Origin: a virus
IMG/VR virus record: IMGVR_UViG_3300017728_004512
Location: 1 to 37,381 of that record
DNA length: 37,381 bases
Strand: one strand, 5' to 3'
Position 1 is the first letter of the stretch. Every line of letters begins with the position of its first letter. The notes beneath the pieces are model-generated. The model searched no databases. It was not told the origin of the DNA and was given only the letters and a program-made list of their open reading frames with translations. Positions 1,527 to 37,381 of the stretch are shown here, one piece after another. A program made the translations under genes and the position numbers.

Positions 1527-1966
1527 TATACTTCAGGTTCTGCTGTGGGTTCATCAGTAGGCGTGTCAGCTACAGGTTCATTTATTCCTTCTATATCATC
1601 GGAAGCTTCTTCTTCACCATCAGTTTTAACTTTACCTTTTTGCATTAATTTTTCAAGCTCATACTTAGCACCGTTTAAATCATCATATCTATCTAGATCA
1701 AATAATATACGATTAATATCTGCTTGCATATATTCCCCGTTATCGATTAAATTAAATGTTTGTCCATTACTAAGAAAACATTTAAAAACAGGTTTTGGTG
1801 CTTTAATAATTTTAACATCAACTACCGCAGAAGGAGGAATACCTAATGTATCTGGCCCTAAAGCACCAAATGCCCCCGGAGATAACTGACGTAATTGGTA
1901 TTCCCTATCTTCGCTTATTACTTGACGTATTTTACGTCTTAGTCGCTGTTCAGTTAATTTATTCAT
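1526..1966 (-). CDS. Small head-associated protein with helical leader and acidic tail (146 aa)
   Basis: The N-terminus (MNKLTEQRLRRKIRQVISED) is a basic amphipathic helix ending in I-S-E, a leader type recurring in this window and common in T4-like marine phages. The middle (about 40-105) is a mixed region with FKCFLSNGQTF and a helical DINRILFDLDRYDD stretch. The last 35 residues are almost all Asp, Glu, Pro and Thr. Acidic low-complexity tails occur in phage scaffold and internal core proteins. It overlaps the 409-aa gene by 4 bases (ATGA) and the SprT gene by 1. Function is unknown; a place in the prohead is inferred from leader, tail and neighbours. Confidence 0.7.
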   Translation of the reverse strand: MNKLTEQRLRRKIRQVISEDREYQLRQLSPGAFGALGPDTLGIPPSAVVDVKIIKAPKPVFKCFLSNGQTFNLIDNGEYMQADINRILFDLDRYDDLNGAKYELEKLMQKGKVKTDGEEEASDDIEGINEPVADTPTDEPTAEPEV

Positions 1967-3192
1967 TGCATAAAATCGCTTCTAGGAATATGTCCTACAC
2001 CACCAGGACCAAAATAGGTATCTAATGCATCACTATCATCTGCTAATTGGTCTAACTCATCATCAGTTAATTCAGTACCATCCATAAATTCAGCATATGT
2101 AAACATATTATCTTCACCTTCTAAGCTTTTAAGATCAACTTTTTTACTATTGATTACAGTTTCATTTAAGTTTTTAGTCTGTTGATAATCTAAATAATGG
2201 TAAACTGAAGACATATAGTCAGAAGCTTTAGTTAATTTAGCTTGAACCCATGATTCTAATTGAGTTTCATCGTCAATCATATCACAAAGAGCTACAGCAT
2301 ATTTTTTCATTTTAAGCATTTGACTTTTAGCCATACCACCTTCATAATCCATATTATCAGGGCCCAAAAAGTTTGCTGTTTGTTCGGGTGGTTCTGGAAG
2401 TGCTAATTGAGTGTCTTGTGGGATATCTGCTTCTTTAAATATAATTTTAGTACCATCAACTTCAACTTCACCTTTATCATGAAGTTTTTTCATTAATGCT
2501 TTAGTAAATTTAATAGCACTTTCTTTATCATTACCCTTATTCATATGTTTTTTAATAAGGTGTTTTAAATCTAAAGTAAAAGTAGTATCCGCGGGTAATT
2601 CTATATCTTTAGCTTCATCCATTGGCCTACCAACGTCCCAGGCTAATTTTCTTTTTTTAATTTCTTTTTCAAACTTAGCTATATCTTCTTTATTACCTGC
2701 TTCTTTAGCTTTTTCATAGTTTTCAATAGCAGCTTTAATTTTAGGATCGCTGTTGTAAATTCTTTCACTAGTAGCCTTATTAAGACCTAATAAGGCCGCC
2801 ATTATAGCAATATAACCAGCGGCTTTACTAAGCTTACCTTCATCAATAGGTCCCCCGGCATTTAAATAATATTTTGTTAAAAAGTCTTTTATATCAAACT
2901 TACCTTTATGTTGGGGATAATCTTGATATACATCATCCAAAAATTCTTCTAATGAAGAGGCTTCCATAGCTTTCATTTCAAGGTCTTTTGCTACACCTTC
3001 TTTCATAGCTTTAGCTTTTTTAATAGCTTTATCTCTGGCAGCTAAATAGTCATCTGAGTCAATATCACCATCACCATCATGGTCTTTTTTCTTTTCCATA
3101 ACGTGGATTTCATCTTCTGGACCAGCAGCAGCTTTTACTTTAGCTAATTTATCTGGAGAAGTGTGGATGGTAGCTTCGTTTAAAAAATTCAT
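1963..3192 (-). CDS. Modular internal-head-type protein with EF-hand loop and repeated xxE|(A/G) sites (409 aa)
   Basis: The protein reads as a string of short modules. Residues 4-7 are LNE|A. Residues 37-48 (DHDGDGDIDSDD) fit a calcium-binding EF-hand loop with Asp at positions 1, 3, 5, 7, 9 and 12. A helical stretch follows (80-110), then a hydrophobic helix (122-137), a Lys-rich helical module (205-250), a helical module with VQAKLTKASDYMSSVYHYLDY (317-336) and an acidic tail (370-392). Module borders carry MKE|G (63-66), IDE|G (116-119), MDE|A (191-194), FKE|A (252-255) and LNE|T (342-345), matching or close to the T4 prohead protease pattern (L/I)xE|(A/G). Several modules resemble separate small proteins of other marine T4-like phages, from memory. 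TATAAATA lies 10 bases upstream of the ATG. I infer a packaged, processed head protein; it has no known enzymatic domain. Confidence 0.75.
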   Translation of the reverse strand: MNFLNEATIHTSPDKLAKVKAAAGPEDEIHVMEKKKDHDGDGDIDSDDYLAARDKAIKKAKAMKEGVAKDLEMKAMEASSLEEFLDDVYQDYPQHKGKFDIKDFLTKYYLNAGGPIDEGKLSKAAGYIAIMAALLGLNKATSERIYNSDPKIKAAIENYEKAKEAGNKEDIAKFEKEIKKRKLAWDVGRPMDEAKDIELPADTTFTLDLKHLIKKHMNKGNDKESAIKFTKALMKKLHDKGEVEVDGTKIIFKEADIPQDTQLALPEPPEQTANFLGPDNMDYEGGMAKSQMLKMKKYAVALCDMIDDETQLESWVQAKLTKASDYMSSVYHYLDYQQTKNLNETVINSKKVDLKSLEGEDNMFTYAEFMDGTELTDDELDQLADDSDALDTYFGPGGVGHIPRSDFMQ

Positions 3193-3518: not shown

Positions 3519-4088
3519 TTATTTTTTCTTTTTAAAGCTAACTTTAGCTTTTCTAGTATTTTTTACAAATTGTTTGCCTTTTTTACTACCCCTAACTTTT
3601 TTTCTAGAAGTAGAAGCACGTTGTGCTTTAGTAAGTGAATTTGCTTTAGCACGAGGTAAACAACGTTGTGTTGCTTTACCTTTAGGCATAGTACCACATT
3701 TACCTGCTATATTTCCTTGAGTATCAATGCGAACCCAATCTTCCTTACCAAACCAGTTTTTTAAACTTTCGTCTATACTACCTTCAATAACATTATATTC
3801 TGCAATGATTGCAAAGTGGGGGTCATTAAATAGTTCTTCTAGATGATTTGATACTTGGGGTTTAAGTTGATTGTATAGGGATTCATTTTTATATGATTTT
3901 TTTCTCTTACCACCTGAACCTTTCATTTGTCCCTTACAAACCTTTACAGCACGCCCCGATAAATAAGCTGAAGATTTTTCACCTGCCCTTTTACGAGCGG
4001 CTATATAAGCTTTACCTCGCTTACATAATTCTTCATATACTAATTCTTCAATTAGTTCATTTATTATTTCATTTAAATGTTTTTGCAT
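3519..4088 (-). CDS. Highly basic phage protein with a Cys-containing WVRIDTQGNIAGKCGT module (189 aa)
   Basis: The N-terminus (MQKHLNEIINELIEEL) is an acidic helical leader with LNE. Residues 22-60 are basic (AYIAARKRAGEKSSAYLSGRAVKVCKG), a segment also found alone in phage head-region proteins. Residues 105-108 are IDE|S. The C-terminal module, about 116-185, starts WVRIDTQGNIAGKCGT, then QRCLPRAKANSLTKAQRA and a long Lys/Arg tail. I recall this module as a conserved phage domain of unknown function (DUF6321 from memory). The charge suggests DNA binding, perhaps packaged with the genome. The start overlaps the end of the cupin-like gene by 20 bases. Confidence 0.75.
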   Translation of the reverse strand: MQKHLNEIINELIEELVYEELCKRGKAYIAARKRAGEKSSAYLSGRAVKVCKGQMKGSGGKRKKSYKNESLYNQLKPQVSNHLEELFNDPHFAIIAEYNVIEGSIDESLKNWFGKEDWVRIDTQGNIAGKCGTMPKGKATQRCLPRAKANSLTKAQRASTSRKKVRGSKKGKQFVKNTRKAKVSFKKKK

Positions 4089-4449
4089 ATTTGGATATAC
4101 TAATCATTAATGACCCATCTCCTTTTATAAGACGATGCCATTGGTGTCTCCTAATAAATATAGGGCTATCTAAAGAAACAGGTAGTTGGTCTTCAAATTG
4201 AAATTGCCAATTAGTTTTACCTAAAACTGTAATGATTCTATCTTCATCATCCATGTGCCATTTTAAAGCTTCTGGTTTAGTTGAAGCAGAAAACAGACGA
4301 CTTATTGTGCCGTCTGCTTCTTTTATATCAGTATATGGTTTACCAGTAAGTTGAAGCAGGTGTTCCCAGACCCAATTGTTTATGGTATCTAGGGAGATTA
4401 CAACTCCAGTAACTAGCTTTAGTCCTATCTTTTTTATTTTTACAATCAT
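4069..4449 (-). CDS. Small cupin-like protein, overlapping the upstream gene (126 aa)
   Basis: Residues 52-118 (FSASTKPEALKWHMDDEDR, then WQFQFEDQLP, RRHQWHRLIKGDG and SLMISI) resemble a compact phage protein family that I read as a cupin-like beta-barrel. The W-H near residue 64 and the H-x-W-H at 102-105 are candidate metal or ligand contacts. The only start that keeps the conserved KWH segment is the ATG at 4449, which puts the first 110 bases in a different frame inside the end of the 287-aa gene. The next ATG (4254) would remove KWH. No alternative GTG or TTG is present in this frame between them. Function unknown; cupin assignment is by pattern only. Confidence 0.6.
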   Translation of the reverse strand: MIVKIKKIGLKLVTGVVISLDTINNWVWEHLLQLTGKPYTDIKEADGTISRLFSASTKPEALKWHMDDEDRIITVLGKTNWQFQFEDQLPVSLDSPIFIRRHQWHRLIKGDGSLMISISKYAKTFK

Positions 4450-5203
4450 GTCTTGCCGCGAATGCTTGCGAAGCTTTTTTATTTCCTAATTTTGCTCTTA
4501 ATCCACCGGAACCAAAAGTAACTTTTTTAATTTTTTTAGTTTTAGGGTCTCTAACATAAACAAAATATGCTTTAGTTCCCCCTCGTTTTGGTTTATTTAA
4601 TGGTTGATTTTTCTTTTTCTTTTTAGCAGCTTCATTAATAATATTTACTATTTCTTTTACACTTTTTTTAGGACTAGCTAACCTACCGTATAAAGCTTGG
4701 TCAGCACCTATATTAAATGCCGATTTATTTGTAAGAGCAGATGAAAGGTAATCAATACTAGTATCTAACCCTTCAATGTCTTCTTCCCTATCTTCACCAT
4801 CTTGTCTACTAGTTTGAAGTATTTTTAAGATTTGTTGTAGTAGTTCGATTTGCTTTCTATCTAAATTAATATTTTCAACTTCCATAATATAAGGTAAATC
4901 AAGAGGTACTAATTTACCTTCAAACATCCCTTGACGACCAGCGTCTGTGTGTATATAATATTCATCTGCTTCAGATAGCTGTATTTTATCTGTTTCCCAT
5001 AATTTTCTTATTTCAGCAAATAATTTAACATGGGCATTAGAACTGATTCTGAAAATAGATTCACTTAGGGGGATTTTATTATCTAAATGATATTGTAAAT
5101 TTTCAGATACTTTTACTCCTTCATTAAGGGTAGTATTACCATACTTTTCACGTCCACACCCACAATCTGATTTACCAAATAAAAGTTCTTTAAGTTTAAT
5201 CAT
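4340..5203 (-). CDS. Head-type protein with leader, helical modules and C-terminal basic Cys module (287 aa)
   Basis: Residues 1-28 form a leader with C14-x-C16 that ends in LNE|G (26-29). The module at about 44-105 (PLSESIFRISSNAHVKLFAE, then TDAGRQGMFEGKLVPLDLP) recurs in T4-like marine phages. IINE|A (188-192) precedes a Lys-rich linker and a C-terminal module with YVRDPKTKKIKKVTFGSGGL, AFAARHDC and YWSCNLPRY. This looks like a small nucleic-acid-binding domain with two cysteines and a histidine, a conserved phage module of unknown function. The xxE|(G/A) sites fall at the module borders, as in the 409- and 1207-aa proteins. It overlaps the zinc-ribbon gene by 8 bases. The role is inferred as a processed internal protein. 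Confidence 0.75.
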   Translation of the reverse strand: MIKLKELLFGKSDCGCGREKYGNTTLNEGVKVSENLQYHLDNKIPLSESIFRISSNAHVKLFAEIRKLWETDKIQLSEADEYYIHTDAGRQGMFEGKLVPLDLPYIMEVENINLDRKQIELLQQILKILQTSRQDGEDREEDIEGLDTSIDYLSSALTNKSAFNIGADQALYGRLASPKKSVKEIVNIINEAAKKKKKNQPLNKPKRGGTKAYFVYVRDPKTKKIKKVTFGSGGLRAKLGNKKASQAFAARHDCKNKKDRTKASYWSCNLPRYHKQLGLGTPASTYW

Positions 5204-6146: not shown

Positions 6147-6482
6147 TTAACTTACATCAAACTCTGAAGAGGTAAGTTTAACTCCATATTTTTCAAAAAA
6201 TTTTCTTGCATCGGCCCCCCTTCCGGCACCTACAGCATCGTAAAATTCAAATAACCCCCTTTCACCTCCATCAAGGTTTATTTGTTGGGGTCTAGATCCA
6301 CCACTATTTACAAATAAGTAACCTCTATAAATACGATCTGACATTCCTGTATAAGCAACATCAATATTAACAAGTTTACCATTTATACGGTCACCTTGTT
6401 TTACCATAATATCATTACCTACAATGTCAATTTCAATATTACGGCTAATAGTAATTTCGTTTAATATATCTTTAAGTTTCAT
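6147..6482 (-). CDS. Small protein with ILNE leader (111 aa)
   Basis: The start MKLKDILNEITISRNIEIDI is a short helix ending in ILNE, the leader seen in several head-type proteins here. The rest is beta-rich (DIMVKQGDRINGKLVNIDVAY, then a basic Gly-rich GRGADARKFFEKYG stretch). No family is recognised. It overlaps the end of the 1207-aa gene by 4 bases (ATGA), so the two are translationally coupled. If the leader is a capsid-targeting signal, this would be a small internal protein. Equally, ILNE may simply be a helix. Confidence 0.65.
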   Translation of the reverse strand: MKLKDILNEITISRNIEIDIVGNDIMVKQGDRINGKLVNIDVAYTGMSDRIYRGYLFVNSGGSRPQQINLDGGERGLFEFYDAVGAGRGADARKFFEKYGVKLTSSEFDVS

Positions 6483-9400
6483 TTTTTCTGGAAATCTGAG
6501 GATACACCTCCTGTTATAAATTTACCTGTAACTTTAAAGGGTTTAGGTGAGATTTTATCATCACGTATAACTACACCTTCATGGTCATTAACAGAACCCA
6601 TCGGCGAATCTAATACATCTAGTATTGCATCACCTAATTTTTCTGTAGCGAGGTATGTAGTAGCTCCTTGGATGGCTTTTTGAACTTCTTGTTCTGTATT
6701 AAAGAGTGAATCTACGTTTTCACCCCCAAACACAGCAAAATATACTTGTTTACTTAATGCACCAACATCTTTTATAGAATCGGTTTCTTCGATATTCATT
6801 TTTAAACGGTCGGTTTTAGGAATATTAGTAACATTATTTAACCATTGAGCTAATGTTTTGGTTTGGTCTCCCTCAGCAAAATCAATAGTATATTTTTGGC
6901 TTAATGCAGCTCTAAAATCTGGATCTTTAGTAAATGTAGTAGGTACGGAACCATAAATTTCAAATCCTTTCTTTTTAGCAAATGGTTCTAACTTTTTAAG
7001 TAATTCTTTTAAATCAGCTTTATCATATAATTTTTCAGATGTTATTCGTTTAGTTAACATTTTACGTGCGCCTTGTACTTCTTTAGTTTCTACTTTTAAT
7101 AAACCATGAATTGCTAAAAAATTCTTACCATAATCTTGTACATTAGATTTACCACTGACATATTCCATATTAAACATAATATTAGGATCATCAATTAATC
7201 CTAATGCGTTTAATTCTTCTTGTATTGATGGTAAAGCATTATTAAATATATCTAATACATCGCCACCTGCTTTAATCATCCCATGACCCTGACCAAATCT
7301 ATCTTCTAAATCAGCTTTAGTAACTCCACGTAAATCAAGTGCCTTTTTTGATCCGCGGTCCATGGCGAAGACACGTTTACCGTCGAGATTTACTAATCTA
7401 ATTGACGCATTTACGCCATCTATCTTAACGCTACCGGGTGATTTTTTAAGACTATTAGTAGCCTGTTCAAATGATTTAATTAAATCTTTACCACTATTTA
7501 CATTAGGTAAATCAAATGGGTGTGCCATGTGCCCCGCGGCACCCCCCTCGTATAATATTTCTTCGGTAATTATATCTAACCACCATTCCTGTGAAAATAG
7601 TCCTTCCTTTTTCATTCTTTGGGTTTTTCTTTTTGATGCTTCTTTACGCTTAGTAATGTAATCTAATCCGGTTTTTAAGCGTTTTTTGACAGCAGGATCT
7701 TTAGATCTATTATACGCCGCTCTAACACGTTGGTGGATTAGGTTAATAATTTGTGACTGCCGTGCGTGAGACTTAGCTTTAAATGATTTTTTAGATAAGG
7801 TATCAACTATATCCTGCCTAGTGCTGAATTTAATGCTAACGGTATCTTTGGGGTTTTCGTCAGTATATAGACGGCGTCCAGATCCTTTAGGTTTTTTACC
7901 TGTACCCTTTTTAGGGTCTCCTTCTTTAACAGGTTCATAAGCTGAGCCATATGGTGCAGCTTTACCTTTATGTCTTTTTTGTACCTCTGGGTCTATATTC
8001 TCTTTATGAGTTGTAGTTTTTAAAGTTTTAGCTAATGTGAGTGCTTTATAATATTTTTGATTTTTGTCACTTCTCTTTTCCATCTTTTTAAGACGTGCCA
8101 ATTCTTTATTAATTAGTGAAAGAGGAATTTTTTCACCTTTAGGAATATTTAAACGTTTTCTAACTGTACCTTGTTTTAAATTACCTGCTTTTTTACCTTT
8201 AGCAGCCATTTTTTCATATGTGTCCCCCTCATCTACAGCATTATCCTCTAAATATCCTAATTTTTTAGCTTTTTTAGGATCATTAGTAAATGTATCACTT
8301 GCTCTATATCTAGTTTGTTGTACTTGATTTGCCTTATATGGTGGGAAGTTTTCATCTATTTGGGCTGATGGTAAGTGTTTACGAGCATAGTCTGTATAAA
8401 TTTGTGTTATTTTATCTTCTTGATCGTTTGATAGTTCTTCGGCTTTACTATCTATAAAATCTTGTAATGCTTGAGTAAATGAAACTTTTCTTGTTTTAGC
8501 ATTTTTATAAATTCCCATTACATGGGCCGGAATTTCATAATCTAAGGTAAGATATTCAAATGTGGGTAAGTCCTTTTCGTCTTTTTCTAGATCACCTTTA
8601 ACTCCTTTATCAAAATGGAACTGCCCTATATGTTCTAATTCATGTCTTACAGAATCTTTAATTTCAGCTATTAAATCGTTATATGCCTTAGGAAACATAT
8701 CAGGTTGATAGTTAATTTGAATAAACATTGATTCATCATCCGCACCTGCATTCACAATAAATGGGTTAGGACCTAGCTTATCAAAGGCAGTAGGGTAAAA
8801 ATATAATTCTAAATCATAAGATACTGCAGTATCTTCTTTTTTATCAGATCTTCTTAGTTTTCCGATTTCTTCAAAGTTGTCTTCATAATTTTTACCAAAT
8901 TCATCCTTAAACATATCTACAACAAAACGAGATATTATTAAAGTTTCTGCGTCATAACGCCCTTCATATAATTTTCTTTTTAACCCTTTAGTTAAATTAG
9001 TAGGAACCTGGGTCATTTGATCTGTTTGTTTAGAAAAAAATTTACGTAACTTTTTCATATTAGCTAAATGTTTATTCATTTCTTGTTGGTTCATAGTACC
9101 CCCCATAAGTTCATTTAAGTCTTTATGTAGAGTTTTACCATTTGAAGTATAAAAATTGCCTGATTGTATGATTTTTTGGGTTAAAGAAATAAAATCATTA
9201 AAAGTAGCATTAGGGTTTTTTCTGCCTAATTCTACTCCTAACTGATTATTAGCAGAATCCATATCCCAGCCACTATCAAATGGTCCTCCTTTTAATTTAC
9301 TTTTTAGGGTACCTATAAGTTCTAAAGCCTCACCAGTACCTTTAGTTAAAAATCCACCTAATTTAGTAGTAAAATAAGCACTAGCTAATACATGTCTAAA

Positions 9401-10102
9401 AGCGTCTCTTTTATTATCTAATATATCTCTATATTCTTTTTCTTCTTCAGGTGTTCTATTTTCGGGGCTACCTTGGGGTAAATGTTTAGTACTATATAAA
9501 GTTTTAGCTAAAGTTTTAATTTTTTCTATAGCAGGGATGTAATCTGTTATACCTTCGCTTATATTATTAGGCATAGTAGTATCTAATAATTTAGTCCAAA
9601 TTTCTTCTTTAATTTCTTCGGGGAGATATTCAGGAATAAATTTAAAAAATTCAATTTTATTATTAGATTTAATAATTTCACGCATACGCGTACCTGAAAT
9701 ACCGCCGGCTTGTGGTGGTACTAATTCAATTTCTGCTTTAATATTGCGAGGTTCTGCAAATTTGGGGATATTATTGTAACGCCCATCAGTAGCATCTTTT
9801 TCACCTAATCCTAAAATAACCGTAGAGCCTTCAGGTGCTACACTCTCTACAAAATCGTATACATCTTTTACAGGAGAGGGTGATTGTGCTACACTTATAA
9901 TTAATTTTTGGGCACGCGAGTCAGAATCAAACTCCTTATAAAAATTCCATATTTCTAAAGCTAAAGGTGATCCTATACCCTCTCTTTCTTTTTGCCCAAT
10001 TCTTACTATAACTTTATCAGCAAAATCCGCAAGATATTTTGCCATATTATAGTGTCCGAGATGAGGTGGTTTAAATCCACCTGGTAAAAGGGCTATTTTC
10101 AT
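6479..10102 (-). CDS. Giant multidomain protein: NMNAT-like nucleotidyltransferase, two hydrolase-like domains, basic module and ligase-like domain (1207 aa)
   Basis: Domain 1 (1-170): GGFKPPHLGH (8-17) and ISGTRMREI (135-143) are the two signatures of HIGH-type nucleotidyltransferases such as NMN or pantetheine-phosphate adenylyltransferases. Domain 2 (about 185-335): RDAFRHVLASAYF (232-244) and DMDSANNQLGVELGR (280-294) resemble DUF6973. Domain 3 (about 382-585): RHELEHIGQF, with HELEH at 487-491, is a zincin HExxH. Domain 4 (about 728-830): a very basic module with GTGKKPKGSGRRLYTDENP. Domain 5 (853-1207): KIDGVNASIR (893-902), DRGS (915-918), MEYV (979-982), EGVVIR (1175-1180) and K1187/K1190 match motifs I to V of DNA/RNA ligases; the domain resembles DUF6267. 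ISE|G (182-184), LYE|G (379-381 and 850-853), VDE|G (623-626) and VKE|G (725-728) lie between domains. It has a candidate late promoter. Its probable job is packaged enzymes released by prohead cleavage, by inference. Confidence 0.85.
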   Translation of the reverse strand: MKIALLPGGFKPPHLGHYNMAKYLADFADKVIVRIGQKEREGIGSPLALEIWNFYKEFDSDSRAQKLIISVAQSPSPVKDVYDFVESVAPEGSTVILGLGEKDATDGRYNNIPKFAEPRNIKAEIELVPPQAGGISGTRMREIIKSNNKIEFFKFIPEYLPEEIKEEIWTKLLDTTMPNNISEGITDYIPAIEKIKTLAKTLYSTKHLPQGSPENRTPEEEKEYRDILDNKRDAFRHVLASAYFTTKLGGFLTKGTGEALELIGTLKSKLKGGPFDSGWDMDSANNQLGVELGRKNPNATFNDFISLTQKIIQSGNFYTSNGKTLHKDLNELMGGTMNQQEMNKHLANMKKLRKFFSKQTDQMTQVPTNLTKGLKRKLYEGRYDAETLIISRFVVDMFKDEFGKNYEDNFEEIGKLRRSDKKEDTAVSYDLELYFYPTAFDKLGPNPFIVNAGADDESMFIQINYQPDMFPKAYNDLIAEIKDSVRHELEHIGQFHFDKGVKGDLEKDEKDLPTFEYLTLDYEIPAHVMGIYKNAKTRKVSFTQALQDFIDSKAEELSNDQEDKITQIYTDYARKHLPSAQIDENFPPYKANQVQQTRYRASDTFTNDPKKAKKLGYLEDNAVDEGDTYEKMAAKGKKAGNLKQGTVRKRLNIPKGEKIPLSLINKELARLKKMEKRSDKNQKYYKALTLAKTLKTTTHKENIDPEVQKRHKGKAAPYGSAYEPVKEGDPKKGTGKKPKGSGRRLYTDENPKDTVSIKFSTRQDIVDTLSKKSFKAKSHARQSQIINLIHQRVRAAYNRSKDPAVKKRLKTGLDYITKRKEASKRKTQRMKKEGLFSQEWWLDIITEEILYEGGAAGHMAHPFDLPNVNSGKDLIKSFEQATNSLKKSPGSVKIDGVNASIRLVNLDGKRVFAMDRGSKKALDLRGVTKADLEDRFGQGHGMIKAGGDVLDIFNNALPSIQEELNALGLIDDPNIMFNMEYVSGKSNVQDYGKNFLAIHGLLKVETKEVQGARKMLTKRITSEKLYDKADLKELLKKLEPFAKKKGFEIYGSVPTTFTKDPDFRAALSQKYTIDFAEGDQTKTLAQWLNNVTNIPKTDRLKMNIEETDSIKDVGALSKQVYFAVFGGENVDSLFNTEQEVQKAIQGATTYLATEKLGDAILDVLDSPMGSVNDHEGVVIRDDKISPKPFKVTGKFITGGVSSDFQKK

Positions 10103-10130: not shown

Positions 10131-11051
10131 TTACTGATATAAGATTTTCTTTTCTACTAATCCTTGGAATGTTAGTGGTTTTGCGTTTTGTAGTACACGA
10201 GTTATTTCTTCAAATCCTAAATCACTTGGGTCTTTACCACCAAGTTCTAATAAAAATATTTCCTTACCATATGCCATAAGTTCTTTAGCATACTTAAGAG
10301 AATCATTTATGGCATCTTGGTCAAGTGCAAGATATATTTGTTTTACGCGTCCTCTAACGAGTTCTTTATAGAGTGATTTACTAATTCGTTTTCCAAACAA
10401 GGGCACGGCATTTCGTTTGATTGCAATTGCATCAAAGGCACCTTCACAAATGATAATAGGAATATTAAAGTTACAAAGCATGTCAAAGCCAATAATATCT
10501 TTTGATGTTGGCGGAAGCTTGTGCTTGTGATAAGCTTGTGGATCAAACGAACGACCCACCCAGTAATTAAGGATTCCTTGTCTATCATAACTTGGTATTA
10601 TTATAAAATTAGCTAATTTACCTTCTTCAATATACCCAATATTATACTTTATTATATCTTGTGCTGTAACCCCTCGGGACTTTAAATAATGGTAAGCTTT
10701 ATCTCTAGTTAAACCTTTACCTTTAAGTAGTGTAATAAATCCTTCAGGTAATTGAAGTTGATCTTTAGGTTTTTCTACATGTGTTGCTTTAAACTTATAC
10801 TGAGCATCAATTTCTTTTAATTCTTGAAACGCTGTATAAGGAGCCTTAATAAATTTAAGGAGTTGTAATGCTCTTGCACCCTTAAAACCACAAACCCAAC
10901 ATTGGTATTTTTGGGTTAATTTATTTAATGTAAGTTTTTTCTTATGGTGGTTGCAATTAGGACAACTAAATACGGCCTCGTCTCCTCCTCGTGCGCTTTT
11001 GCTTTTTCCTAACAGACTTTCTAGCAAATATATAAGGCGATCTTCCTTCAT
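10131..11051 (-). CDS. DNA primase, zinc finger plus Toprim (306 aa)
   Basis: Makes RNA primers for replication. The N-terminal zinc finger has C30-x2-C33 with H35/H36 and C51-x2-C54 (CPNCNHH ... CWVCG), the CHC2 type. The Toprim core shows CEGAFDA (202-208, catalytic E203 and D207), LALDQDA (241-247, D244 and D246) and GKDPSDLG (272-279). The length fits the short phage primases (T4 gp61-like) without a fused helicase. It has its own host-type promoter at 11056-11086, only 4 bases from the ATG, which would give a nearly leaderless mRNA. The downstream 1207-aa gene has a separate promoter. No replicative helicase lies next to it in the window. Confidence 0.93.
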   Translation of the reverse strand: MKEDRLIYLLESLLGKSKSARGGDEAVFSCPNCNHHKKKLTLNKLTQKYQCWVCGFKGARALQLLKFIKAPYTAFQELKEIDAQYKFKATHVEKPKDQLQLPEGFITLLKGKGLTRDKAYHYLKSRGVTAQDIIKYNIGYIEEGKLANFIIIPSYDRQGILNYWVGRSFDPQAYHKHKLPPTSKDIIGFDMLCNFNIPIIICEGAFDAIAIKRNAVPLFGKRISKSLYKELVRGRVKQIYLALDQDAINDSLKYAKELMAYGKEIFLLELGGKDPSDLGFEEITRVLQNAKPLTFQGLVEKKILYQ

Positions 11052-35752: not shown

Positions 35753-36133
35753 TTAACGTTTTCCCCCGTAATATTCTACAGCGTGTCCTTCTTCTATTAA
35801 TTGTTTATTAACATTAACTAATGTTATTCCATCTTCTCCATTTAAGGGGGATAAAGAGTCTACTAAAACAGTAGCTAATGCCCTACCGAACTTACCTACC
35901 CCAGAAACCCTTAATACACATTTATTATTATTATATCTTAGAATTTCAACTAATCTATCTTTAGCAGCTAGTCCACGTTTTTTTTCTTCTAAATCTCTAG
36001 TTCTAGACTCTGGGGTATTAATACCTTCCATTCGGACTCTAATTTTTTTCCAAACATTAAATCCTAAATCAATGGTAACATCTATTGTATCACCATCAAC
36101 TACTCTATCTAATATAGCCTTATATTCATACAT
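35753..36133 (-). CDS. Staphylococcal-nuclease-like (thermonuclease) protein (126 aa)
   Basis: Single SNase domain. Catalytic and structural signatures: VVDGDTIDV (11-19, Asp13 and Asp15), RMEGINTPE (34-42, R34 and E42), acidic/basic stretch EEKKRGLAAKDRL (49-61), GKFGRALATV (80-89, R84) and VNKQLIEEGHAVEYYGG (108-124). Length and order match the calcium-dependent micrococcal nucleases of T4-like marine phages. No signal peptide, so it is cytoplasmic or packaged. It overlaps the preceding membrane-protein gene by 1 base. Probable role: degradation of host DNA. Confidence 0.9.
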   Translation of the reverse strand: MYEYKAILDRVVDGDTIDVTIDLGFNVWKKIRVRMEGINTPESRTRDLEEKKRGLAAKDRLVEILRYNNNKCVLRVSGVGKFGRALATVLVDSLSPLNGEDGITLVNVNKQLIEEGHAVEYYGGKR

Positions 36134-36363: not shown

Positions 36364-37381
36364 TTAAATTATTCTATAATTAAAACCGACTGAAAAATCA
36401 TGCCAAGCACGGTTCCAGTATTTATGGTACTTTCCTTGGGAAAATACTCCTAATTGTTTATTTACTTGCCACCCTAAAATTAAACCTCCTGTATAGTCAA
36501 ACCAAGTATTACCATCAACAAAGTTAGTATACGAGTATTCATTTTTAGCACTTACATGGAGAGGTAATACACTTGCCCAAGAGTGGAGCCAAAATGATTT
36601 AGTATAGTGGTAATAATCATATCCTAATACTAACGAATGATTCCACTGATAGGGTAATAATGCTCTTTCTTGATCAACATATTCATTTAATACATTAGGA
36701 AGAGCAACAGCATTCCATACTATATTATTTTCGGCTACTATATCCCCATTTGGGTTAATCCATTCTCCTTCAAAATTAGTACCATAACCTTGTTCAATAG
36801 CTATATTTGTAAAATCAGCTCCTGCTAATTCAGATAATGGATCAAATCCATAGGGTTCAGAAAAACGTTGAACTAAACCAATATTCAAAGAAAATTCTTT
36901 AGCTATATTATATCTATAGCGTTGTGAAGCTTCAAAATATCTTAGATCAGCAAAGCCGTCTTGCACATACTCTACTTTTAAAATCCAATGATCATGAACA
37001 TATCTTAAAAAATGTTGTTGGTCAACAAATTTACTTCCTTGTTGTCTTTTATAGTCAAATTCAAATAAATATTCTAAACCCTCTACATTGCCTACTGTAG
37101 CAGCATCTGAAACTGATGTTTCAGTACCATTATAAAATACGTTTTTTCTATTTTCGTAATCTAAACGAGCGATTTTTCTAACACCAAAAGCTAAAGTATA
37201 ATCAAAAGGAGTAGATACAATGTTTTCTTCTAAAATACCTGTAGAAGGATTTATTGAATATAAACTAACATCTGCTAGTGAATTATTACCTGTTACTGCT
37301 GTATAAAAAGTAGCAAATTTGAGTTGTTTTTTACCCCAATCTTTAAGTTGTTGGGCTTGTACTAAAAGAGGTACACAACAT
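36364..37381 (-). CDS. Secreted outer-membrane beta-barrel-like protein, 5' end cut by window edge
   Basis: The frame is open from the right edge (37381) to the stop at 36364, giving 338 residues; the start lies outside. The first visible residues (CCVPLLVQAQQLKDWG) are the end of a signal peptide, with cleavage likely after A-Q. An upstream GTG at 36966 is internal, not the start. The sequence is aromatic and alternates like membrane strands (FDYTLAFGVRKIARLDYENR, WILKVEYVQDGFADLRYFEA, LNIGLVQRFSEPYGF), and the C-terminus FSVGFNYRII has the aromatic pattern of outer-membrane barrels. I recall similar proteins from T4-like marine phages. Location: outer membrane of an infected Gram-negative cell. 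Possible roles: superinfection exclusion or lysis. Confidence 0.7.
   Translation of the reverse strand, partial: CCVPLLVQAQQLKDWGKKQLKFATFYTAVTGNNSLADVSLYSINPSTGILEENIVSTPFDYTLAFGVRKIARLDYENRKNVFYNGTETSVSDAATVGNVEGLEYLFEFDYKRQQGSKFVDQQHFLRYVHDHWILKVEYVQDGFADLRYFEASQRYRYNIAKEFSLNIGLVQRFSEPYGFDPLSELAGADFTNIAIEQGYGTNFEGEWINPNGDIVAENNIVWNAVALPNVLNEYVDQERALLPYQWNHSLVLGYDYYHYTKSFWLHSWASVLPLHVSAKNEYSYTNFVDGNTWFDYTGGLILGWQVNKQLGVFSQGKYHKYWNRAWHDFSVGFNYRII

Follow-up and report, generated by a model that had tools for sequence, protein, structure and literature searches.

A putative cargo polyprotein of T4-like viruses with modules exchanged at prohead-protease-type joints

Introduction

The proteins that phage T4 packages and injects are known one by one. 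The internal head proteins IPI, IPII, IPIII and Alt are each encoded by a single gene, carry a capsid targeting sequence and are processed by the prohead protease gp21. The first ten residues of IPIII are enough to direct packaging, and the gp21 cut follows L/I-x-E (PMC9026906). Here we describe a 1207-residue protein encoded at positions 6479-10102 (minus strand) of the IMG/VR record IMGVR_UViG_3300017728_004512, which is probably a head-packaged cargo polyprotein of a marine T4-like virus, cut by a gp21-type prohead protease and delivered with the DNA. The window that we analyzed is the entire 37,381-base record, itself a fragment of a virus genome.

The window protein and its relatives share with the T4 internal proteins a hydrophobic-x-Glu (h-x-E) cutting motif, separate-gene forms with short h-x-E leaders, a variable cargo and a gp21-type protease within the clade. 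They differ from those single-gene proteins in having up to eight predicted products per chain, internal joints and cassette exchange. A second likeness is to polyvalent proteins, in which many unrelated enzyme domains likewise stand in one phage polypeptide, a zincin is present (here in every complete member) and delivery with the DNA is presumed (Iyer et al., 2017; PMC5512222). Release by embedded zincins has been proposed for those proteins (PMC5512222), whereas the joints described here bear the motif of a prohead protease and the modules interconvert with leader-bearing separate genes. The ejection proteins of giant phages (phiKZ and SPN3US) are packaged in the head and processed by a gp21 relative (gp175/gp245) that cleaves behind the Glu of a short motif, much as we propose here; their motif, however, is S/A-x-E, and their cuts remove propeptides rather than separate the enzymes of a chain (PMC5694885, PMC9026906).

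The ingredients of the system are therefore of kinds already known from T4 internal proteins, polyvalent proteins and giant-phage ejection proteins. What appears to be new is the joining of many candidate cargo enzymes by prohead-protease-type sites and the exchange of cassettes at those sites. A literature search that covered few subscription journals found no multi-enzyme cargo chain with such joints and returned only the papers on polyvalent proteins, T4 and giant phages.

A chain of modules that end in h-x-E

The gene is a single frame from ATG to stop (stop codon at 6479-6481), as the initial annotation had read it. Pfam gives weak matches only, to DUF6973 and CTP_transf_like, and the modules were delimited as follows, all on the minus strand. 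Module A (residues 1-183; 9554-10102) is an NMNAT/PPAT-like nucleotidyltransferase that ends at ISE183|G. Its AlphaFold model, with a predicted local distance difference test (pLDDT) score largely above 85, adopts the fold of the PPAT/NMNAT family (VIA-align Z 15.2 over 149 residues, root-mean-square deviation 2.3) and carries the GG.KPPHxGH signature in the sequence MKIALLPGGFKPPHLGH. Module A also filled the fold-search results of the N-terminal model. Predicted fold and signature together confirm the module as a member of the NMNAT/PPAT nucleotidyltransferase superfamily, a membership that does not imply a substrate and that upholds the initial NMNAT-like reading.

Module B (residues 184-331; 9110-9553), which ends at LNE331|L, had been called DUF6973-like. 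It does match that family, weakly, at 24.9 bits (E 1.7e-5), under the Pfam cut-off of 27, and we keep DUF6973-like as a tentative label. Module x (residues 332-380; 8963-9109) is a small basic segment that contains GGTMN, has an isoelectric point (pI) of ~10 and ends at LYE380|G. Module C (residues 381-584; 8351-8962) is a zincin-like domain that contains RHELEH and ends at IDE584|N; the HELEH motif named in the initial annotation is there in the sequence, and the region is folded in the AlphaFold model. The 41-residue module y (residues 585-625; 8228-8350) begins NFPPYKANQVQ and ends at VDE625|G. Modules D and z (residues 626-727; 7922-8227) form a basic mobile unit beginning GDTYEKMAAKGKK, in which D has a pI of 10.3, and end at VKE727|G. 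Module E (pI 10.8) is mobile and very basic and, together with a leader-like joint helix, LFSQEWWLDIITEEILYE852|G, spans residues 728-852 (7547-7921).

Module F (residues 853-1207; 6482-7546) is a ligase-like nucleotidyltransferase with the motifs KIDG, MEY, HEGVV and FKVTGKF, of which KIDG, MEY and HEG are invariant across the family alignment. Residues 857-1200 align by fold with many RNA/DNA ligases at Z values of at most 7.7. Foldseek with a model of the 592 C-terminal residues gave no significant match, the ligases surfacing in a second look only and at Z below 8, and a ligase profile run against PDB sequences gave no usable match. The ligase-like call of the initial annotation thus stands on its motifs and on a likeness of predicted fold at modest Z, and we refer to the module as a putative ligase.

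The five E|G sites of that annotation, ISE183|G, LYE380|G, VDE625|G, VKE727|G and LYE852|G, are at domain borders, as it had placed them. Two more, IDE584|N and the LNE331|L that closes the DUF6973-like cassette, bring the joints to seven, which would give about eight products rather than the six or so first proposed. In AlphaFold models of residues 1-640 (mean pLDDT 74) and 616-1207 (mean pLDDT 69), low-confidence stretches at 181-186, 304-337, 356-378, 590-605, 616-644, 694-758 and 834-860 cover or adjoin all seven joints and are predicted linkers. All six h-x-E[GASN] sites in the protein (183, 380, 584, 625, 727 and 852; h being L, I, V or M) are module borders, and an F-x-E|G at 1077 falls within the ligase-like domain.

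Relatives exchange modules at the joints

We collected relatives in an IMG/VR scan (80 loci, L001-L080) and, for the ligase, in a second scan (80 loci, down to 47% identity), ~160 loci together. Module A is the first module in every carrier, and modules x, C, y, D, z, E and F vary in presence and in order. The orders seen include A-x-C-y-D-z-E-F, A-x-C-E-y-D-F, A-x-C-D-z-E-y-F and A-E-z-D, among others, with C at differing places and the position of y permuted; D occurs in 71 open reading frames (ORFs) and E in 63. Among isolated phages, relatives of modules D-F were limited to a 53-residue match in Pelagibacter phage HTVC033P. Module B was found in the window protein and in none of the 80 relatives of the first scan, and it is a clean insertion relative to L001 and L011. 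The L011 protein (best segment 95% identical) reads TTMPSEIGE|MMGGTMN where the window protein reads TTMPNNISE|(148 residues ending LNE)|LMGGTMN.

This border pattern is general among the relatives and far beyond chance. Homology breaks were gathered from 62 non-redundant members, blind to the motif, and 33.5% of them lay within 4 residues of [LIVMF]xE, against 15.6% expected. In an end-residue test over the twenty amino acids, Glu was the only one with a clear enrichment, and breakpoints were not in excess where the hydrophobic residue lay 1, 3, 4 or 5 positions from the Glu. Once repeated contexts were collapsed, 575 of 1678 breakpoints fell on [LIVMF]-x-E, compared with 258.7 +/- 18.3 under the null and with 314 in the highest of 500 circular shifts; the same collapsed set held no excess for hE, hxxE, hxD, hxK or hxQ. 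A tail-fibre-like family from the same loci, used as a control, gave a ratio of 1.00 (59 breakpoints). Among 98 insertion events, 49 had h-x-E at all three places, where 1.1 were expected.

The residues kept at the joints are those of the T4 gp21 motif. Module D follows 44 different upstream contexts, in which P1 is E in all 44 and P3 is V, L, I or M in 43, with P2 free. The joint of module x is L(Y/F)E in 21 of 21 close relatives, followed by G, K or R (LYE|K in L001 and L005). In 73 of 75 loci with a fused ligase-like module (43/45 and 30/30), h-x-E stands immediately ahead of the conserved GGA; these copies are not all independent, and in three of them the h-x-E was two residues from the match start. 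Since the residue after the joint Glu is free (G, N, D, A, S, E, V, I, H, K, M and others), the E|G motif of the initial annotation is too narrow: its T4 gp21-type core, h-x-E, is conserved in homologues along with the domains, and the following Gly varies. These observations support a view in which the joints are kept while the modules are swapped.

Could the protein instead be a permanent multidomain fusion that is never cut, in which h-x-E is a relic of the fused genes' leaders or a preferred linker? The helix that precedes the ligase is similar to the leaders borne by separate genes, as such a fusion would have it. A relic would decay, however, and it counts against this explanation that almost all joints retain the P1 Glu and the hydrophobic P3 amid drifting P2 residues and flanks, and that internal cassettes likewise end in h-x-E. 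We regard an uncut fusion as improbable. A shared DNA sequence acting as a recombination site is unlikely, and we rejected it, in view of the 37 different 12-nucleotide sequences that encode the 44 joints before module D.

Separate genes and the variety of cargo

Some modules of the chain also occur as genes of their own with a short leader that ends at the Glu of the fused joint. A stand-alone ligase gene in L020 has the leader MNFSEYIELINE|GGAAGHM, and a stand-alone module D in L078 has MKKLDRIIRKILQE|GDTYEK. A separate basic gene of the window (3519-4088, minus strand) has a relative that is a module inside the L018 polyprotein, and the C-terminal part of its product occurs alone in genes of ~92 codons with leaders such as MTRERLDEIIKE|SL (L067). 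Sequence before module A is present in 23 of 51 relatives, in almost every case as a leader of the type MNHLTRSLLE|GLLE|. For comparison, the packaged ipIII product of T4 starts MKTYQEFIAE|A and the T4 vertex protein gp24 starts MAKINELLRE|S. The expectation that the five parts would be found as separate genes with the same E|G ends was thus borne out for some modules and for the Glu; the Gly is not required. A census with a simple leader regular expression (157 of 1029 ORFs) had no null model and was not used. Two genes past the stand-alone ligase of L020, a gene at L020:10257-11126 starts MKTFEQYIKEN, strikingly like the MKTYQEFIAEA of T4 ipIII.

The relatives carry other enzymes as well. 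The polyprotein at L032:6044-9088 contains a Fe/Mn superoxide dismutase (Pfam E 4e-30), unusual as possible injected cargo. Plastocyanin-like copper-binding modules bounded by h-x-E directly precede module D at L011:8001-11642, L057:4080-6896 and L062:7932-10907 (Pfam E as low as 2e-17 within the family), and further cargo includes 5'-nucleotidases, GNAT and additional metallopeptidases.

This variety bears on the idea that the protein belongs to the prohead core or scaffold and is shredded in maturation like T4 gp22, gp67 and gp68, its enzymes idle after assembly. In T4, gp21 cuts the core proteins, which for the most part leave the head (PMC9026906, PMC9958956), and x, D and E, being basic, might belong to such a core. 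The large modules, on the other hand, are recognizable enzymes whose active-site motifs are conserved; a scaffold would have little use for superoxide dismutase, plastocyanin-like or nucleotidase modules; and content differs between close relatives, as it does among T-even internal proteins (PMC3012670). A scaffold role seems to us very improbable.

Prohead protease and capsid proteins of the clade

A gp21-type protease is encoded in 14 of 23 related records (7/11 and 7/12), including L003, L005 and L006, which have close homologues of the window protein, and gp23 was found in 14 of the 23. Twelve gp23 homologues contain LVNE|A, LVTE|A, LVVE|S, LLNE|S and similar sites that match T4 FLTE|A in position, and we would expect these capsid proteins to be cut where T4 gp23 is.

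The clade has a cultured relative in Flavobacterium phage immuto, whose genome encodes a gp21-type prohead core protease. Like the window protein, its 907-residue gp088 (YP_010114595.1; 27.7% identity over 27% of the query) combines a nucleotidyltransferase with zincins, and it has candidate sites at VKE496|G, LPE565|G and MAE702|G. Unlike the window protein, gp088 has another domain before the nucleotidyltransferase, and the immuto nucleotidase is a separate gene. Four further proteins of immuto, a phage of Flavobacterium sp. LMO8, bear h-x-E leaders (gp092, gp077, gp080 and gp082). We found no virion proteome of immuto in the literature.

Several observations weigh against packaging and cleavage in the head. 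No capsid or protease gene was seen in the 37-kb record of the window. Within the window protein, h-x-E[GASN] occurs 6 times against 4.3 in shuffled versions (p 0.27), an ordinary count that we dropped as evidence for want of an excess. The three-residue motif is loose, and fourteen other h-x-E triplets, which lie off the borders, would need shielding by folding. KKE833|G, between module E and the helix, has no hydrophobic residue, and the C/y joint of L010 reads AQFE|N. Unlike T4 internal proteins, the window protein has no N-terminal leader and starts MKIALLPGG, straight into the nucleotidyltransferase. In L179, a 235-kb T4-like contig, a separate ligase-like gene starts bare (Met-GGAAGHM), and this leaderless enzyme may not be packaged there. 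Finally, HExxH is present in all 44 complete members, far above chance.

The last observation suits the main rival reading, a polyvalent protein of the kind described by Iyer et al. (2017), which would be delivered uncut and then taken apart by a zincin of its own, in the virion or the host; no domain is more frequent in polyvalent proteins than the zincin, for which a role in processing them has been proposed (PMC5512222). Self-cleavage by the zincin retains some plausibility because every complete member has the motif. The joints, however, bear the prohead-protease motif, which also agrees with the sites in the clade's own capsid proteins, the same motif ends the short leaders of separate genes that have no zincin, and the zincin module varies between members and is itself an h-x-E-bounded cassette. 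We therefore consider processing by the chain's own zincin unlikely.

Proposed pathway and significance

As read from the sequences, the chain is modular, its joints are h-x-E, some of its modules have leader-bearing separate-gene counterparts, and the clade has gp21-type proteases and a matching capsid motif. Because relatives shuffle modules exactly at these cutting signals, the chain is most likely packed, cut in the head and delivered with the DNA. From this pattern we infer packaging, cleavage and injection, and from the modules their putative roles (NAD+ replenishment, RNA repair, proteolysis and DNA binding). Unrelated enzymes and small basic peptides, most ending in the h-x-E signal, would be made as one chain that joins the prohead core, and a gp21-type protease would cut after each joint Glu during head maturation. 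Module masses predict about eight products of roughly 21, 16.5, 5.6, 24, 4.8, 11.6, 14.6 and 39 kDa, a mature set of nucleotidyltransferase, DUF6973-like protein, zincin, basic peptides and ligase-like enzyme. These would remain with the DNA and be injected to protect or reprogram the cell. Judging from general knowledge of the families, module A could restore NAD+ after host NAD-depleting defences and module F could mend cut RNA.

A wider proposal, to which we give slightly better than even chances, is that T4-like viruses of marine and freshwater bacteria possess a combinatorial cargo system. A coding cassette with the signal at its end could enter a chain, change place or become a gene in its own right, and its product would nonetheless be packaged, released by cutting and injected; the cargo would include the NAD/CoA-synthesis nucleotidyltransferase, the ligase-like enzyme, superoxide dismutase, plastocyanin-like copper proteins, nucleotidases, an acetyltransferase and metallopeptidases. 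If true, DNA phages would have, in an interchangeable cargo chain, a novel means of assembling and evolving the set of tools that they inject. With the joint signal, candidate injected proteins in uncultured viruses could be sought from sequence alone and the ends of unknown effector domains marked, and the cultured phage immuto makes the idea directly testable.

Other genes of the window

Further mosaics with h-x-E at breakpoints seem to be present in the window genes at 4340-5203 and 1963-3192 and in a 112-ORF accessory-gene cluster of L001-L080. The gene at 4340-5203 encodes 6 h-x-E[GASN] sites, against 1.1 expected, and contains a cassette of ~83 residues (4631-4879, minus strand) that, aligned with L018 and L012, is inserted exactly at IME|AAKKKK and ends INE|AA, with near-identical flanks. 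The accessory cluster has a breakpoint ratio of 1.85 for h-x-E and 1.63 for hxxE, and its h-x-E result is less specific because the latter is also raised.

The remaining window genes are tail and late accessory genes. A DNA primase gene (10131-11051; phrog_47, E 3e-41) immediately precedes the polyprotein gene in transcription order. The start of a pyridine-nucleotide-disulphide oxidoreductase-like protein (2-505; E 1e-5) is truncated by the record end, and a Staphylococcal-nuclease-like protein (35753-36133; PF00565, E 4e-8) is encoded among the tail-end genes. At the other edge of the record, an open-ended frame of 338 residues (36364-37380) has no Pfam match and looks, by eye, beta-rich and of outer-membrane type.

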